This document shows positions 19,677 to 35,771 of a DNA stretch of 64,000 bases, piece by piece. The stretch spans positions 372,001 through 436,000 of the forward strand of contig NZ_SLWK01000001.1 in NCBI RefSeq assembly GCF_004345615.1, read 5' to 3'. A program made the position numbers and the translations under genes. Source of the DNA: Natronoflexus pectinivorans. GTDB taxonomy: Bacteria; Bacteroidota; Bacteroidia; Bacteroidales; Marinilabiliaceae. Within the stretch, counting starts at the first letter, position 1. Each line of letters begins with the position of its first letter. The notes beneath the pieces were generated by a model. The model made no database searches. It saw nothing but the letters and a program-made list of their open reading frames with translations, and had not been told where the DNA came from.

Positions 19677-21983
19677 TTACTTCAACAAGAACTTCTCAAC
19701 TCTTATTTGGTTATTTTGATCAGTTAACTGAATAACGTACATTCCTCTTGCAAAGCTACCTACATCTAAACTATATGACTCATTTGCAGAATTACCAGAA
19801 TAAACAAGTACGCCCATGCTATTAAAAATGCTGATTCTAAATGGAGACGACTCGTATGCTATGTTAAGATTGTTTGTTGCCGGATTGGGATAAATTCGAA
19901 CCCTACTTTGCTCGATGATGGTCGTTCCAACGGATGCATTATTAGCAATCTCCTCAGGCCCAAATGCATTGGCAACACTCCCATCCAAAGCCTTTAACGA
20001 ACCTGGGAAATAAGATACAGAGATATATTGCCCCGTAGGGACATTTGAACTTAAAGAGAGAATGACTGCATTCTCGTTATCAGGATCAACATTCGCCGCT
20101 TCAACACCAATGTTCCCTGGTGAGAAAAATCTGTAATTACTGCGTCGCAATGAATTACCATCAATAGGCTTATCGAATAAAAGCCTCACAGAATTTCTTC
20201 CAACAAGCTCTGTTTCCAAAATCTGCGGCCCCTTAACTACTGCGTCTTCCTCATTTAATACAAAAACCGCATCGGCATTTGCTTTCAGCAAAGGAACTTC
20301 AAAGACTTTAACTACTCCGTCAAATTCTGCTTCTACTGTATAATTACCATGGAATGCATTAAAAGTTAAAGGTTCATTGGCCGGCATTACTGCATCGAAA
20401 TTTGTTGCCCACTTGGTTTTTGTATAATAAAGTAAGGTATCAGCAGCTAGTTTAGGCCTTCCATCTTCATCAAAGAAACCAGACCTATCACGCCATGCCC
20501 ATCCATCTCTAAGCGACCAGTGATATAACCCTACAATAGATGGGTGTGAAAAAGCGATGGTAAGAACCATGATATAGTCAGCAGCTTGTTCAGCCTGTGT
20601 GAGATTTCCGCCGAAGTCATACTCAGTCAGTTTGATTGGCAAGCCGGGTTCAGCAACAATATTAATGTTACGTACCAGCTCATTAATCCCTGGCCTGCAA
20701 CAGTCCCAGAAATGAGCCTGCATCCCTACACCTGTTACAGGGGCACCCTCCTCCAGCATCTGAAATATTAAATCCCGGTATTCTTCAGCCTGACCCCAAT
20801 TATACTCCACATTATAATCATTTATATAAAGTTCGGCATCAGGATCTACTGAACGTGCCCATTTAAAACTGTCCCAGATAATTCGGTCACCCACTTCATT
20901 TCTTAACCAATCAGCATGACCGGTAAGCGGTTCATTTACCACATCATACTCTTTAATAATCCCTCTATATCGCTCAACATCCCGAAGAACTCTCTCTCTA
21001 CATGCTTCATATATATCTTCAGGAGTTGGCAGGCTTCTTACCCAATTTGGAGTTGAGTGATTATCATTACCGCCCCATATCAAAGCATGCCCTCTTAACT
21101 CCCAACCAACTTTTTGAGTCCATCTAACAGCATTCTCAAATACGGTATAATTGGGTGGACCGGGTTGTGACTGAACACCACTCCATTTAAAAGAGTTTTC
21201 GGTAACACCGGCGTTAAAATATTTATACATCGTGGCCTTTCTCCAATCATCGTTGGATGCAACTGTATTTGCATCAGGATCGAAGAATCCTGCCTCTACA
21301 ACATACTCATTGCCATCACCTGTTGTTAATGCAGATCCTCCGCAATTAATCCTTAAAGCAAAATCACCATCAACTTCTTCAATAACAATCCCTTTTATAG
21401 CTACATTATCCACTAAAGCTTCAAGTTCAATTAGAATTTGATTCCCGGAAGATGTAACCACCAGACTCCTATCTACAGCAATATCTCTTCCTCCGGCCAC
21501 TGCATGGGTATCAAAATTTTCCAAAAAGAGTTCCCCATCAATCCGTACATTAAAAATACGGGCATTGTTTCCTCCATGAAATATTTCAGCGAACTTAAGG
21601 GTGACTTCATAATCTTTTCCAGCTTCAACCGGGATGGCATAAGCTAAATAGCCACCCCATCGTTCAGTCCGGTAGATTTCGGCATCTTTTTCGGCCTGTA
21701 CAACATTGTTTGTGGAAAAAACATTTCCCATGCTTTGAGCTCCTTGGGAGAAATCAAAGGCAATGCCAAATGGAAATTCATGTTTCTGCATTCGAATAGC
21801 GACTTCGCCCGTGTAGGGCTCCCCGTTTTTATCGAATATTTGTATGCCATAGGAGTCCATGCGTAGCTCCTCTATACGCTCTTGGGCATTGTTATACCAA
21901 TTGGTATAGTTTTGAGCTTGTATGCTTATTGGAAAAATAAATATTCCAATAAGCATACATAGCAGTAAATTAATTGATTTCAT
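19677..21983 (-). CDS. GH10 endo-xylanase with nested malectin-like domain and type IX sorting domain
   Basis: 768 residues, signal peptide to about residue 24 (SIQAQ). The GH10 entry strand FPFGIAFDFS (71-80) is interrupted by about 165 residues and resumes at KYFNAGVTENSFKW (254-267). The acid/base is Glu351 (YDVVNEPL) and the nucleophile Glu454 (IKLTEYDFGG). The insert (about 85-243) is malectin-like: IYRTERWGGYLAYAIPV, VTLKFAEIF, IFNVRIDG, then AIKGIVIEEV and finally LRINCGGS. The last motif normally opens a malectin domain, so the order looks permuted. After the barrel come an Ig-like domain (about 585-690) and a type A Por/type IX sorting domain (695-768: RIYPNPATNNLNI, ending KFLLK). 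The protein is probably exported to the surface to cut xylan backbones. Confidence 0.92.
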   Translation of the reverse strand: MKSINLLLCMLIGIFIFPISIQAQNYTNWYNNAQERIEELRMDSYGIQIFDKNGEPYTGEVAIRMQKHEFPFGIAFDFSQGAQSMGNVFSTNNVVQAEKDAEIYRTERWGGYLAYAIPVEAGKDYEVTLKFAEIFHGGNNARIFNVRIDGELFLENFDTHAVAGGRDIAVDRSLVVTSSGNQILIELEALVDNVAIKGIVIEEVDGDFALRINCGGSALTTGDGNEYVVEAGFFDPDANTVASNDDWRKATMYKYFNAGVTENSFKWSGVQSQPGPPNYTVFENAVRWTQKVGWELRGHALIWGGNDNHSTPNWVRSLPTPEDIYEACRERVLRDVERYRGIIKEYDVVNEPLTGHADWLRNEVGDRIIWDSFKWARSVDPDAELYINDYNVEYNWGQAEEYRDLIFQMLEEGAPVTGVGMQAHFWDCCRPGINELVRNINIVAEPGLPIKLTEYDFGGNLTQAEQAADYIMVLTIAFSHPSIVGLYHWSLRDGWAWRDRSGFFDEDGRPKLAADTLLYYTKTKWATNFDAVMPANEPLTFNAFHGNYTVEAEFDGVVKVFEVPLLKANADAVFVLNEEDAVVKGPQILETELVGRNSVRLLFDKPIDGNSLRRSNYRFFSPGNIGVEAANVDPDNENAVILSLSSNVPTGQYISVSYFPGSLKALDGSVANAFGPEEIANNASVGTTIIEQSRVRIYPNPATNNLNIAYESSPFRISIFNSMGVLVYSGNSANESYSLDVGSFARGMYVIQLTDQNNQIRVEKFLLK

Positions 21984-22150: not shown

Positions 22151-24748
22151 TTATCTAATGGTAACGGTTGCTTTTTTCAAATCTGATTCATGTGAACTAT
22201 TCCCGTAATAAACCACATATTCACCGGGAGTCACTGTTATTTTTTGTTGCTCCCAATCGTAAAATTCAAATGAGGAAGGCGACAGTTCTATTTTTGCCTG
22301 ACGCTTTTTCCCTGCCGGAACATCAACTCTCTGGTAACCCCTCAACGTTTTCAATGGGCCGTTTACGTCACCAACTTTCCGAATATATACCTGTACTATT
22401 TCAGTGCCATCGCGGTCTCCGGCATTTGTAACCGGTATGGTAATTGTAGTGGTTTGATCTCCGCTTAATTTAGATCTGCTAAGTTTCGCTTTTCCAATTT
22501 CGAAATTGGTATAGCTAAGGCCAAATCCAAATGGGAATAGCGCCTCTGTGGTATATCGGTAGGTACGTCCCTGCATGGAGTAGTCTTCAATATCACCCAG
22601 ATTATCAGAATTTGCATAAAATGTTACAGGAAGTTTACCCGATGGATTAAAGTCTCCAAATAAGACATCGGCCACAGCCAAACCTCCTTTTTCGCCACCA
22701 TACCATGCCTGAAGAATTGCTTCAGTTGTTTCAAGTTCGGGCTCAAAAGCAATTGCAGAACCAGAACAGTTCACAAAGATCACAGTTTTACCTGCATCTT
22801 TTAATGCTCGCAAACAGTTGCGTTGAACAGCAGGAAGTTCAATATCGGTACGATCACCCCCTTTAAATCCAGGATAAGAAACCGGCATCTCTTCTCCCTC
22901 AAGATGACCGGAAAGCCCTCCCACGAAAATGACAGTATCGAATCCTTCAAGCCTCTTAACCAGAGCTGCGTAATCCACATCTTCTTCCCTACCAAATTCA
23001 AATTCAATATTGGCTTGCCAGTTTTCTCTGTGAGCATACCTTATCTTTATGTGGTAGGTTTGGCCGGCTTCTACCTTGAATGGAATTCTGGTTGATAAAG
23101 TTCTCCAATTGGTGTAGCTTTCCAGTACTTCGTCATTTACACTCAGCTCAAAAAATCCGGTTGCTCCACCCTTAAATACAATCTCTTCTGAAACCGTTGG
23201 GGTGAATGTTGTTTCATATATTGCTGAGAAATCTTCAAGCCAAACGCCGGGTGCAAATTCATGTTGTCCAGCTGCAGTTTGTCTGATGGAATTAGCCATT
23301 TGCTGAACAGCTACAGACTCTCCCTCAAAATTTGGATGATTCCAATAGGTTGCTCTAAACCCTGTGCGACCATTGATAGAGGTTTGAGGAAAATAACTAA
23401 TTGTTACCTGATCATCAACCAGATCCACACCTTTCTCGTAATAAACTTCAGCGTTAGGAAGTTTAGATTTAATACCATCAAGAATTGTGATCGTATTTAT
23501 GGGTGTTCCATTATAGTTTCCCCAAAGCATCTCTTCATCATCAGCATTGGGGCCAATAACTGCAATTCTTTGAATGGTTGTTTTGTCCAAAGGCAAAACA
23601 CCGTTAGGATTGTAAAGCAACGTCATGGTTTGTTGAGCCATCTCATACGTAAGACGGCGATGGCGTTCATTATTCAGGACCGACTCCGGGATTTGAGCCC
23701 AGGGCACAATTGAATCATCATCCATATCACCCAGATCAAAACGTCCAATTAACACGCGCATCAAACTAATGTCTATGTCTTCCTCTGTAATCAAATCCAT
23801 TTCCAAAGCCTTGGGCAAATCTTTGTAGTGATAGTTGTCCCAAATACATTCCAGATCGGTTCCCCCTAACAGGGCTCTTGCAGCTGCATGTTCACGGCTT
23901 GATGAAACATTGTGTGTTGTGTAAAAATCTGTTATGGCACCGCAATCAGCCACTACCAAATGTTCAAACCCCCATTCTTCACGAAGAATTCGTTGCAAAA
24001 GTCTTGTATTGCTACAACAAGGCTCATCTTCAAGGCGCTGATAAGCACACATCACTTGTCGCACATCGGCATCCTGCACCAATGCTTTAAAAGCAGGCAT
24101 GTAGGTTTCGTAAAACTCTCGCGGACAAACATGGGTAACATTTAATTCATGACGACTCCACTCCGGTCCTGAGTGTACTGCATAGTGCTTGGCACATGCT
24201 AAAAGCTTGCGGTAGCGGGCATCTTCGGGACCCTGTAGTCCTTTTACTACCTGTACCCCCATATTTGACATCAGAAATGGGTCTTCTCCATAAGTCTCCT
24301 GGCCACGTCCCCAGCGGGGATCGCGGAAGATATTCACATTTGGGGTCCATACAGAAAGGCTTAGGAATCTGCGATTCTCTTCACCGCGGCGCATGGCCTG
24401 ATGGTATTTAGCTCGCGCTTCGTCCGATGTAGCATCAAAAATCTGAAACACCAATTCATCATTAAATGATGCGGCCATCCCTATGGGCTGGGGGAAAACC
24501 GTAACACTATCGTTGCTGGCATAACCGTGTAATGCTTCGCTCCACCAGTTAAAGCGTTTAATTCCTAATCGGGGGATAGGATCAGACTGGTCGCAGAGCA
24601 AAGCAGCCTTCTCTTCAACGGTTAAACGGGATATTAAATCCCGTGCTCGTTCCTCCGAACTTAAACTTGGATCTTGAAACGGATACTGCTGTGCCGAAAT
24701 TCCTATAGCACAAAACAGGCAAAATGTAAATAAAACTAAGTTTTTCAT
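22151..24748 (-). CDS. GH3 beta-xylosidase/beta-glucosidase with PA14 insert
   Basis: 865 residues from ATG at 24748, with a signal peptide (about 1-19, IGISAQ). GH3 N-terminal barrel (about 25-340): PIPRLGIKRFNWWSEALHG, DPRWGRGQETYGEDP, KHYAVHSGPE, and nucleophile Asp268 (LVVADCGAITDF). The second GH3 domain (from about 375, RIAVIGPNADDEE) is interrupted at about 460-600 by a PA14 module (GFRATYWNHPNFEG, then YHIKIRYAHRENW) and resumes with FVGGLSGHLEGEEM. It ends with a fibronectin-III-like domain. The NWWSEALHG motif is typical of the xylosidase branch. It probably removes non-reducing xylose from xylo-oligosaccharides in the periplasm. Its start lies 13 bases downstream of the GH31 stop, so the two are co-transcribed. 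Confidence 0.9.
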   Translation of the reverse strand: MKNLVLFTFCLFCAIGISAQQYPFQDPSLSSEERARDLISRLTVEEKAALLCDQSDPIPRLGIKRFNWWSEALHGYASNDSVTVFPQPIGMAASFNDELVFQIFDATSDEARAKYHQAMRRGEENRRFLSLSVWTPNVNIFRDPRWGRGQETYGEDPFLMSNMGVQVVKGLQGPEDARYRKLLACAKHYAVHSGPEWSRHELNVTHVCPREFYETYMPAFKALVQDADVRQVMCAYQRLEDEPCCSNTRLLQRILREEWGFEHLVVADCGAITDFYTTHNVSSSREHAAARALLGGTDLECIWDNYHYKDLPKALEMDLITEEDIDISLMRVLIGRFDLGDMDDDSIVPWAQIPESVLNNERHRRLTYEMAQQTMTLLYNPNGVLPLDKTTIQRIAVIGPNADDEEMLWGNYNGTPINTITILDGIKSKLPNAEVYYEKGVDLVDDQVTISYFPQTSINGRTGFRATYWNHPNFEGESVAVQQMANSIRQTAAGQHEFAPGVWLEDFSAIYETTFTPTVSEEIVFKGGATGFFELSVNDEVLESYTNWRTLSTRIPFKVEAGQTYHIKIRYAHRENWQANIEFEFGREEDVDYAALVKRLEGFDTVIFVGGLSGHLEGEEMPVSYPGFKGGDRTDIELPAVQRNCLRALKDAGKTVIFVNCSGSAIAFEPELETTEAILQAWYGGEKGGLAVADVLFGDFNPSGKLPVTFYANSDNLGDIEDYSMQGRTYRYTTEALFPFGFGLSYTNFEIGKAKLSRSKLSGDQTTTITIPVTNAGDRDGTEIVQVYIRKVGDVNGPLKTLRGYQRVDVPAGKKRQAKIELSPSSFEFYDWEQQKITVTPGEYVVYYGNSSHESDLKKATVTIR

Positions 24749-24761
24749 CACTTGTGTTATA

Positions 24762-31964: not shown

Positions 31965-34900
31965 TCACTTAAGCCCCCTGTTTTGAATCCGAAAATAATC
32001 GAACGAAACATCAAAAGGGCTGTCAGGCTTCGTGGTGGATGAATCAAACCAAAACGTACTTGTCATACTTTGGGTTATAACGCCGTCGCACACCAGAAGA
32101 CCTGCATGAATATCTTTCAACAGGATATCCGACTCTCCAAGCTTCTCAAAAGTTTTTCCATCCACAGAATAATAAGCCGAATATCTGCTTCCTTCTTTCG
32201 AAAGTCGCAATAATAGATGATTGTCACCTATAACTTCTTCTTTAAGGTTTATGGATGCCACTGATTTCGCAATTCCGTTCTCTTCAAAAAGCAAATCGAT
32301 GGTGCCGGGTTGCACTCCTGTTTGTCTTGACGTTTTGATGACTGCTCTAAACATAAGCTTAACGAAGTTGTCGTCGTCCTGGTAAGCAACAATGCCGGCA
32401 TTTTCAGGTTGAGATGGTGTTCTGGAAGCGACTAGTTTTGTCTCAATTGTCCAATCGTTATTGGCACTTTGCAGCAACAGATTTCGGGCATTATTACTGC
32501 CTTCAGAAATATCTCCCTCCTCGGCAGTAATGGTAAGAGCCCCCGGAGCGGATGTAAAACTATGGTTGTTTGGATTCTCCCTTACCCAATTCCATTGACT
32601 ACCGGGCTGACCATTATTAAATTCATCACTTACAGATGCGACATCAAAATTTATATAGTAGGTGTTTTTCTCATAGGTGTTATAGTCCACAAAACTAATG
32701 ATGGCTGTTCCGGGAATACCTTTTGCCTGCTGAATTTCCACAGTTACATCCTTGCTCTCAGCTGAAGCGTTCACACGAGGGACTCTGGATGATCTGTTCA
32801 TGAGATAACTATACGCCTTTTTATCGGCATTAAAGCCTTTCAAAGTTCTCCCATTGATGGTAATTGAGGCGGGAGTTAGATTTGGCATTACCTTAATGGG
32901 GAAATCATCTGAAACAGTTACTCCATTGTGAGTAACATGAACAAATACAGTGGCCACTCCAGGCTTAAGCGCCGATATCACACCCGATTCATTCACCGTT
33001 ATCACAGAAGGATTATTGCTTACATACTCCACATTTGTATGTCTTACATCAATAAAACTATCATCAGTAAGGCACGCCGTAAAACTGGTGCCTGACTTGT
33101 CACCGGGTTGAAGTACTATTTTATCAGAAGTAGCCACCACAGTTTTTAATTCTGCCTTAAATTTTCCAGCCATGACTGCTTCCACTGTACCTTTTATGTC
33201 GCGCGAAGATGCTCCTATTTCAAAAACATACCTGCCATTATCAAAAGCCAATTTGTTATCATCTTCATTCCAGAACCATAAATCGAAACAATTGATGTCT
33301 ATTGACACGGTTTTTATCTGACCTGCCGGTATGGTTACCCGTTTAAAACCCTTTAAACGTTTAATAGGACGTTGCAGTGAAACAGGACTATCAGGTGTTG
33401 TCACATAAACCTGAACAACTTCATCTCCATCTACATTTCCTGAGTTTTTAACGTCCACACTAACGGTAATCATATCGTTAGGGGTCATTTCACTTTTACT
33501 GATTTTAAAATTACTGTACTCAAAGGTTGTGTATGAAAGACCAAATCCAAACTCATAAGAGACATCCTTATCAAAGTACATATAGGTACGTCCATTCTTT
33601 TCATCATCGCCGCGCAAAGTGTAATCATTAAAATCGGGCAGATCATCGACCGATTTATACCAGGTAACGGTGGTTTTTCCACCCGGATTTATTTCTCCGA
33701 ATAGCACTTTTGCTATGGCGGCTCCTTGTGCCTGCCCGTTATAACCTACATAGAAAATCCCCGGGATGTTTGGATTATGCTTAATCTCTTCAACTTCAAC
33801 CATTCCCATGGTTTGCATTACAACTATTGTGTTTGGGTTAACTTCTGCAACAGCCTGGATAAGATTCATCTGATTACCTGGCAAAGCGAGAGAGAACCTG
33901 TCTGACTCTTCTCTCCCGGTGGTCTGGTCGGTTCCTACAAAAATAATTGCCACATCGGACGAAGCGGCTAAATCTAACGTGGCCTGATCGGTTGATTCAG
34001 GCTGCGGTTCACGATATATAAAGTAAATATTTCGTGGGCCGGTAATTCCTAACGTATTAACCTTTGCAGCCACAGTAACCCTACTACCAAAAAATCCTCC
34101 GGTTGATGAACTTTCGACCATCTCCGATGCAAGAATGTTGCCGGTGGGCGAATCTACTCTAACCTCTATTGCTCCTCCGCTAAGTGCCACATTCATGTTA
34201 AACATTATAGAATCTAACCGGGTCACATCAATGTTGTAATATGCCGTCCAGTCACCATCCTTTATTCCACGCAAGGATTTTGTACCAAACCTTTCGGATG
34301 CAATAATCCCACTTGCCGACTCGTCAAAAATTGTCGCATCATACTGATGCTTCTCTCCACTATTACTTACAGTAGTAAAGGTTGACAGCGTAAAAAAATC
34401 ATTTCGACGATCAATGTTGCCACCATCTCCATGTACCACTTCGATACCCAAATTATTCCTTTTAACATAGCTTTTTATGCCTTGAAGAGGAGTGCTTACA
34501 TAATGATCTTCCACCGGCCCTGAATAATCACCCAACTCAATTTTGTTTGCATGAGGTCCCAAAACGGCAATTTTTTGAATATTCTGAGGTCGAAGAGGTA
34601 AAGCTTTTTCTCCGATTGCCGAAACCACTTCATTCTTTAAAAGGACAGGTGTCTTTGTAGCAATCTCAAGTGCCAGTTCGTTATGAGAAGGGTCATTAAT
34701 GATTCCCGGTTTAATTCCTGCGTATGGAACCATACGCGCAGGATCAAACTCTCCTAAACGCATACGAATGGTAAACATATTTATTAAAGCTCTGTCGATA
34801 TCAGCCTCGGTTATTAACCCCCGTTCCAAAGCAGTAATGACGTGGCTTTGATACTCACCTCCACAATCTGAATCGACTCCCGCAATTAAACCCATTGCAG

Positions 34901-35771
34901 TTGCTTCCGGTCCATCCTTTGCATAATGATGACCAACAATAAGGTCAGTAATTGCGCCGCAGTCACCTGTTACATAACCTTTCATCCCGTATGTTCTGCG
35001 GGCAATGGTATCCACCAAAAATTTGCTTGCTGAAACAGGCACTCCGTTTACGGCATTATAAGCAGTCATAATGGATGGCATATCATCTTCCTCAATAAGA
35101 ACTTTGTAGGGTCGCAAATAGAACTCACGCATGTCTCGATTGTCCATATCGGAGCTGCCGGTATGCCTGTTAAATTCAGTATTATTTGCAAGGTAGTGCT
35201 TTCCGCATGGAACGGTTTTAAGATATCTTTCATCATTACCCATCATGCCCCTAATAAAACCGCTACCAATTTGAGACACCAGAAAAGGATCCTCACCAAA
35301 AGTTTCGGCGGTACGTCCCCAACGAGGGTCACGTGCCGGCTCAATCACCGGCGACCAATAGGTCAAGGTAAAGATAAGGTCATGGTTAAAGCCCCGGGCT
35401 TCAGCCGCAATAACAGATGCCTCACGCCTAATTAGTTCCGGATCCCAAGTACAGCCAATGGCATTACTATTTGGGAACGACGTTGCGGTCATTCCACTGT
35501 TGTTATTTCTGCCCATAACGCCATGTAGAGCTTCTCCCCAAACATCATATTTATTAACTCCCAACCGTGGGATTGGGGCCATGGTATTTCCCAGTAAACT
35601 CTGCTTTTCCTCAAGAGTCATCCGTGACACTAAGTCAACAGCCCGCTCTTCGAATGAATATGCAGTATTCAAATAAATTGGCTTATTTAAATCATGAGAG
35701 TTTTGCACAAAAGCAATAGAACCCATGGCAAAAAAGACACAAAAGGAAATTTTAATTATTCGATGTTTCAT
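31965..35771 (-). CDS. giant multidomain GH3 with CBM6-like insert and three C-terminal domains
   Basis: 1268 residues, signal peptide to about residue 22. GH3 barrel (30-330): PIPRLGVNKYDVWGEALHG, DPRWGRTAETFGEDP, nucleophile Asp270 (YVTGDCGAITD). The second GH3 domain starts at about 395 (KIAVLGPHANKIEL), is interrupted by a CBM6-like module at about 475-615 (GDWTAYYNIDV, then IEVRVDSPTGNILA), and resumes with IFVGTDQTTGREESDR. After it come a fibronectin-III-like domain (about 775-870), a BIG2-like domain (about 875-970, VSNNPSVITVNESGVI), a small Ig-like domain (about 975-1048) shared with the GH43 lipoprotein at 3447, and a concanavalin-like domain (about 1050-1265, VSDEFNNGQPGSQWNW) of the type fused to GH43 enzymes. 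A typical GH3 has 700-870 residues. Probably a beta-xylosidase; the added domains suggest polymer binding. Confidence 0.9.
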   Translation of the reverse strand: MKHRIIKISFCVFFAMGSIAFVQNSHDLNKPIYLNTAYSFEERAVDLVSRMTLEEKQSLLGNTMAPIPRLGVNKYDVWGEALHGVMGRNNNSGMTATSFPNSNAIGCTWDPELIRREASVIAAEARGFNHDLIFTLTYWSPVIEPARDPRWGRTAETFGEDPFLVSQIGSGFIRGMMGNDERYLKTVPCGKHYLANNTEFNRHTGSSDMDNRDMREFYLRPYKVLIEEDDMPSIMTAYNAVNGVPVSASKFLVDTIARRTYGMKGYVTGDCGAITDLIVGHHYAKDGPEATAMGLIAGVDSDCGGEYQSHVITALERGLITEADIDRALINMFTIRMRLGEFDPARMVPYAGIKPGIINDPSHNELALEIATKTPVLLKNEVVSAIGEKALPLRPQNIQKIAVLGPHANKIELGDYSGPVEDHYVSTPLQGIKSYVKRNNLGIEVVHGDGGNIDRRNDFFTLSTFTTVSNSGEKHQYDATIFDESASGIIASERFGTKSLRGIKDGDWTAYYNIDVTRLDSIMFNMNVALSGGAIEVRVDSPTGNILASEMVESSSTGGFFGSRVTVAAKVNTLGITGPRNIYFIYREPQPESTDQATLDLAASSDVAIIFVGTDQTTGREESDRFSLALPGNQMNLIQAVAEVNPNTIVVMQTMGMVEVEEIKHNPNIPGIFYVGYNGQAQGAAIAKVLFGEINPGGKTTVTWYKSVDDLPDFNDYTLRGDDEKNGRTYMYFDKDVSYEFGFGLSYTTFEYSNFKISKSEMTPNDMITVSVDVKNSGNVDGDEVVQVYVTTPDSPVSLQRPIKRLKGFKRVTIPAGQIKTVSIDINCFDLWFWNEDDNKLAFDNGRYVFEIGASSRDIKGTVEAVMAGKFKAELKTVVATSDKIVLQPGDKSGTSFTACLTDDSFIDVRHTNVEYVSNNPSVITVNESGVISALKPGVATVFVHVTHNGVTVSDDFPIKVMPNLTPASITINGRTLKGFNADKKAYSYLMNRSSRVPRVNASAESKDVTVEIQQAKGIPGTAIISFVDYNTYEKNTYYINFDVASVSDEFNNGQPGSQWNWVRENPNNHSFTSAPGALTITAEEGDISEGSNNARNLLLQSANNDWTIETKLVASRTPSQPENAGIVAYQDDDNFVKLMFRAVIKTSRQTGVQPGTIDLLFEENGIAKSVASINLKEEVIGDNHLLLRLSKEGSRYSAYYSVDGKTFEKLGESDILLKDIHAGLLVCDGVITQSMTSTFWFDSSTTKPDSPFDVSFDYFRIQNRGLK

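Follow-up and report, generated by a model that had tools for sequence, protein, structure and literature searches.

In the window analysed here, a stretch of 64,000 nucleotides from Natronoflexus pectinivorans, a xylanase gene raises the question of where the first strand of a malectin domain has gone. Profile annotation shows the domain, which interrupts a GH10 catalytic barrel, merely as a truncated malectin, and the RINxGG segment that stands N-terminally in native malectins is found at the C-terminal end of the insert.

The interrupted barrel

The gene and its parts are as follows.

19677-21983 (-): secreted GH10 xylanase gene with nested malectin, 768 residues (ORF and Pfam)
21915-21983 (-): putative signal sequence at the N-terminus, residues 1-23 (judged by eye from a hydrophobic stretch of the translation)
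21753-21914 (-): GH10 N-terminal part, residues 24-77, whose last element is barrel strand beta1, FGIAF (alignment to residues 37-93 of the solved GH10 7d88; strand at model residues 51-55)
21258-21752 (-): insert within the beta1/alpha1 loop, residues 78-242 (absent from relatives L057 and L079; low-confidence linkers at the joints)
21369-21728 (-): main part of the malectin, residues 86-205, in native order the second to the last segments (PF11721 positions 40-145; VIA-align to residues 41-173 of human malectin, Z 11.2)
21276-21362 (-): permuted segment, residues 208-236 (FALRINCGGSALTTGDGNEYVVEAGFFDP), very probably the normal malectin start (rotation and duplicated-profile tests, insert model, Xenopus malectin alignment)
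20349-21257 (-): C-terminal part of GH10, residues 243-545, starting with helix alpha1 (DDWRKATMYKYF) and reaching past beta8 (Pfam 246-516; model strands beta2-beta8)
20931-20933 (-): putative acid/base Glu351, VVNEPL (GH10 motif position in alignment)
20622-20624 (-): putative nucleophile Glu454, LTEYD (GH10 motif position in alignment)
19914-20348 (-): beta-rich linker region, residues 546-690 (weak SWM_repeat match alone)
19689-19895 (-): type IX secretion sorting domain, residues 697-765 (PF18962, 50 bits; TIGR04183)

Pfam matches on the 768-residue protein were GH10 (PF00331, 164 bits against a cut-off of 22.1), Malectin (PF11721, CBM57; 82.7 bits against 23) and Por_Secre_tail (50 bits). 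The catalytic glutamates lie on beta4 and beta7, with Glu351 of the NEP motif and Glu454 of TEYD aligned in every full-length inserted GH10 row. The protein was modelled with AlphaFold over residues 22-545, using window and locus proteins as the input alignment (pLDDT 88, pTM 0.68); the whole model superposes on 7d88 with Z 41.5 across 342 residues, and among the matches listed its structural alignment returned GH10 only. Judged by its sequence, the ORF product would be a type-IX-secreted endo-xylanase of GH10.

The motifs of the interrupted region follow one another as FPFGIAFDFS (residues 70-79), IYRTERWGG (103-111), GIVIEEV (198-204), LRINCGG (210-216) and GDGNEY (222-227), after which GH10 sequence picks up again at YKYFNAGVTENSFKW (253-267). 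The original prediction, that the barrel is opened after FPFGIAFDFS by about 165 residues, is borne out: the insert comprises residues 78-242, and the motifs quoted for it lie where they were placed. The range it had assigned to the feature, 20600-21760, contains the insert and was too broad, as the insert proper occupies 21258-21752 and the remainder is most of the GH10 C-terminal part. In model numbering the insert lies between beta1 (51-55) and alpha1 (223-234), and low-confidence linkers at 61-64 and 218-221 coincide with both of its joints; the only two short stretches of the full model with pLDDT below 50 are found at these joints. While the typical site in nested-CBM GH10 enzymes of the Xyn10C type is the beta3/alpha3 loop, the site here is beta1/alpha1. 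A position of the insert at the catalytic face of the barrel, where the beta/alpha loops lie, is supported. At its pTM of 0.68, the full model does not fix how the insert is oriented relative to the barrel.

GH10 relatives with an empty site were found in L057 (G149) and in L079 (G855); L055 (G774), which carries the insert, comes from the genus group of L057. In both empty-site proteins, the chain runs from beta1 directly into alpha1, e.g. FGVVMDPETSPGSLSWDRATMYRYY, and therefore about 165 residues have been placed into the beta1/alpha1 loop. The insert itself occurs in the same place and order in about nine Bacteroidota species, with insert identities of 37-96% and nearly constant length, so that the search for homologues of the same order proposed with the original prediction finds a conserved arrangement. 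The inserted relatives are Alkalitalea saponilacus, Draconibacterium sediminis, D. mangrovi and genomes G778, G774, G835, G853 and G849 (the last with its copy split across two contig ends), a spread that takes in Draconibacterium and Alkalitalea saponilacus besides three family groups of the order; the A. saponilacus sequence is apparently that of the same-genus genome G334. INCGG and the residues of TT-x-x-G-x-x-Y are among the invariant insert columns.

At a separate position in the barrel, the Glu of TEN, the -2 subsite motif (GVTENSFKW, residues 259-267, 21183-21209), is present in the window genus, and in the alignment both L057 and the remaining inserted relatives have Gly instead. Gly at this position is likewise reported for the Xyn10C/Pm25 cluster in the available text of PMC7848910.

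Segment order within the inserted domain

The Pfam Malectin match covers residues 89-193 and profile positions 40-145 only, and the GH10 match begins at 246. When residues 208-235 were placed before residues 80-207, the score against PF11721 rose from 80.9 bits for the main part alone to 95.9 bits, and the rotated insert matched profile positions 2-145, with positions 2-41 gained. A circular test compared a profile built from 13 native-order malectins with a head-to-tail duplicate of that profile. The GH10 inserts run along the duplicated profile in one piece, from about position 23 to 146 and then into the second copy from 1 to about 23, so that the circle is closed at a single point and no part of the domain is lost or repeated. 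Start and end fall at the same position, 22-24 in most GH10 inserts, and the most diverged insert row, L056, starts at profile position 27.

The gain from the circular profile was 8.4-13.1 bits for the eight complete GH10 inserts and about -0.5 for native controls. Among 113 aligned malectin stretches the largest gains were those of the eight GH10 inserts, apart from three true tandem pairs, and the permuted order was common to all GH10 inserts tested. At the family level, the HHalign score rose from 196.2 to 224.8 with the duplicated profile, a gain of 28.6. When the columns that follow the last strand were shuffled 400 times, no shuffle reached this gain (mean -0.2, maximum 8.9). For the window sequence alone, the gain in the circular test was reached by 8 of 1500 shuffles and by 2 of 1501 random segments (p about 0.001-0.005); as this signal is weaker, the evidence for permutation lies mainly in the family. 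After rotation, the alignment of the GH10-insert profile to solved Xenopus malectin begins at chain residue 10 and pairs INCGG with VNAGG (VNAGGE...HGIHY); without rotation it begins at residue 51.

Modelled by itself, the insert reached a pTM of 0.84, with a pLDDT of about 97 for the RINCGG strand (residues 130-134 of the insert model), and it is thus predicted to fold autonomously. Its best structural matches were malectin-like domains, those of ANXUR1 (Z 12.2, 121 residues, 2.4 A), a Bacteroides beta-glucuronidase (Z 11.9, 110 residues, 1.9 A) and human malectin (Z 11.2, 116 residues, 1.7 A). The sequence-ordered alignment to human malectin pairs model residues 10-126 with chain residues 41-173. 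What it leaves unpaired is, in the model, the permuted segment and, in malectin, the part ahead of residue 41; such leftover segments on both sides of a sequential alignment are as expected for a permutation.

An ordinary-order malectin that has degenerated or hides its first strand somewhere ahead of residue 100, with RINCGG as an unrelated GH10 segment, is what the N-terminally truncated Pfam match would suggest by itself, and it is highly improbable: only about nine residues separate barrel strand beta1 from the first malectin residue, insert-free GH10 relatives have nothing resembling RINCGG in the alignment, and in the insert modelled alone RINCGG forms a strand with high confidence, in columns that match the malectin start, so that on prediction this reading is refuted. 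Two outcomes had been set beforehand as counting against a permuted malectin, and the models speak to both: all eight GH10 barrel strands form without the RINCGG segment in the full model, and an ordinary malectin first strand before residue 100 was found in neither the full nor the insert-alone model. Taken together, the rotation, the HHalign gain and the predicted structures argue that the insert is, as first proposed and now with very high confidence, a complete malectin (CBM57-type) domain in circularly permuted order, nested in GH10.

A putative sugar pocket and a possible role for the permutation

Xenopus malectin binds nigerose via Tyr67, Tyr89, Tyr116, Phe117 and Asp186. Tyr89, Tyr116 and Phe117 are spaced as in the solved malectin sequence, at a constant offset, and in the alignment to Xenopus malectin the Tyr89 position is W110 in the window protein and W or Y in its relatives, while the Tyr116-Phe117 positions are F135-H136 in the window protein and Y-F in most relatives. 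The equivalent of Asp186 is probably the invariant D192, in a region outside the alignment to the solved malectin. Tyr67 would presumably fall in the loop opened by the permutation, where the chain now enters and leaves.

The insert likely binds sugar, and the ligand would be xylan or its side chains. It is less probable, at rather less than one chance in two, that the permuted domain is real and serves as a spacer or stability element with no sugar binding. In plant malectin-like domains the animal pocket is lost, and oligosaccharides are not bound as animal malectin binds them (PMC6038381), and the window protein carries F-H where most relatives have the aromatic Y-F pair. Against this, the Y-F pair, the Asp in the loop of the last strand and an aromatic residue at the end of TERW/TERY are retained in most relatives; the gene belongs to a xylan cluster; and in other GH10 enzymes nested CBMs contribute to the binding of xylan, according to the available text of PMC7848910.

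The native malectin ends would have been joined via about five residues (VIEEV-DGDFA-LRIN) and new ends opened in the loop after the first hairpin. This loop would border the sugar pocket of animal malectin and, if Tyr67 falls in it, the native ends would lie opposite the pocket; a native-order insert would therefore hold its pocket away from the barrel, and a permuted one would turn it toward the catalytic face. With the new ends beside the pocket, the permutation could thus tie the pocket side to the catalytic face of the barrel and extend the substrate cleft, a proposal that we consider plausible and place slightly below even likelihood. The original prediction had instead suggested that permutation was favoured for bringing the termini together, and this part does not hold, because a joint of only five residues needs native termini that were already adjacent. 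The available text of PMC7848910 also describes CBM4 inserts in GH10 and makes no mention of permutation. More probably, the cut shifted the point of attachment to the pocket side.

Origin, other permuted malectins and known systems

Because adjacent malectins occur in the same phylum, the permuted malectin likely arose from a tandem pair: loss of the outer segments of such a pair would leave a single domain in the order seen here. Directly adjacent tandem malectins, about 158 residues apart, are seen in L121 (G744), L123 (G483) and L029 (G613).

A GH2-like family (L022, L023, L027 and L125), in which the malectin start comes after the malectin end, showed circular-profile gains of 4.7-7.2 bits, and the HHalign score of the family rose by 7.5, where 300 shuffles gave at most 6.0. 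By this sequence comparison the family appears to have the same permuted order, with weaker support than in GH10. In these four proteins the permuted malectin precedes an unclassified C-terminal region. A Malectin is also found in L019 (G323, from the same bacterial family as the window), in a GH67/GH115-like protein (by eye), where it is followed by RRINCGAG, at residues ~480-640 of a 978-residue frame. This may be a third permuted case; L019 showed no gain from the circular profile, and rotation added only 3.1 bits. Tandem-array BLAST matches in L021, L026 and L031 were rejected as permuted candidates, since their alignments overran the domain end and the copies are in native order with another domain between them.

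The permuted malectins of GH10 and of the GH2-like proteins may go back to a single permuted ancestor, an insertable module passed ready-made from one enzyme to another; we give this reading about one chance in three. The cut loop is identical in the two groups, INCGG stands at +102/103 after the TER motif in both, and a single clade of the permuted malectins is not rejected (p-AU 0.57). In the free tree, on the other hand, they form separate well-supported clades on an unresolved backbone, and the circular signal is smaller in the GH2 group. Slightly less likely is the fuller version, in which this lineage would be a plug-in module, opened on its pocket side and set into loops of unrelated glycosidases (GH10, GH2-like) with the pocket facing the host active site.

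Nested carbohydrate-binding domains and their circular permutation are each known. GH10 enzymes with a nested CBM4 are well described, with CBM4/CBM22-type inserts in the beta3/alpha3 loop (available text of PMC7848910). The Xyn10C-type enzymes (PbXyn10C, BACOVA_04390, Pm25) share with the window enzyme an interrupted GH10 barrel, a carbohydrate-binding-type domain, occurrence in Bacteroidota and xylan gene clusters, and differ in that the latter carries a permuted malectin in beta1/alpha1. With Malectin/CBM57 (PF11721; Xenopus and human malectin, PDB 2k46, 9ikp) the insert shares sequence family and beta-sandwich (Z 9.4-11.2), whereas its first segment has moved to the end and it is nested inside a catalytic barrel. 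GH2 beta-glucuronidases (PDB 5uj6, 6d50; Z about 11-12) likewise have a malectin on a bacterial glycosidase, with the difference that their malectin-like match is at the C-terminal end of the chain. CBM36 and CBM60 are related by circular permutation (Montanier et al. 2010, as cited in the available text of PMC4444583). They resemble the insert as a circular permutation of a bacterial carbohydrate-binding module, in other CBM families. To our knowledge, nesting in a catalytic barrel is no part of that case.

A search of the available literature on malectin, permutation and GH10 inserts returned no report of a permuted malectin or of a malectin nested in GH10, and thus no description of the combination. 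The inserted and empty GH10 relatives form a natural series for measuring what changes when a binding domain is permuted and nested next to an active site, and the case suggests that the chain order of a domain can evolve to suit its insertion site.

The neighbouring genes in the window encode a GH30, a BD-FAE type esterase, an arabinofuranosidase (Alpha-L-AF_C), three GH43 and two GH97, and further two GH127, two GH3, two GH31, a GH2 and a GH95, a cluster that would fit degradation of highly decorated arabinoxylan. GH97-like, GH3 and GH43-like genes, named by resemblance, neighbour L050 as they do the window gene. One 1268-residue protein encoded in the window (31965-35771, -) has a GH3 C-terminal domain match at residues 376-747 with a CBM6 match inside it at 496-585, and a C-terminal GH43_C2 domain. 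The neighbouring GH3 (22151-24751) has PA14 where this protein has CBM6, and it is possible that in the two GH3 genes one nested domain was swapped for another.
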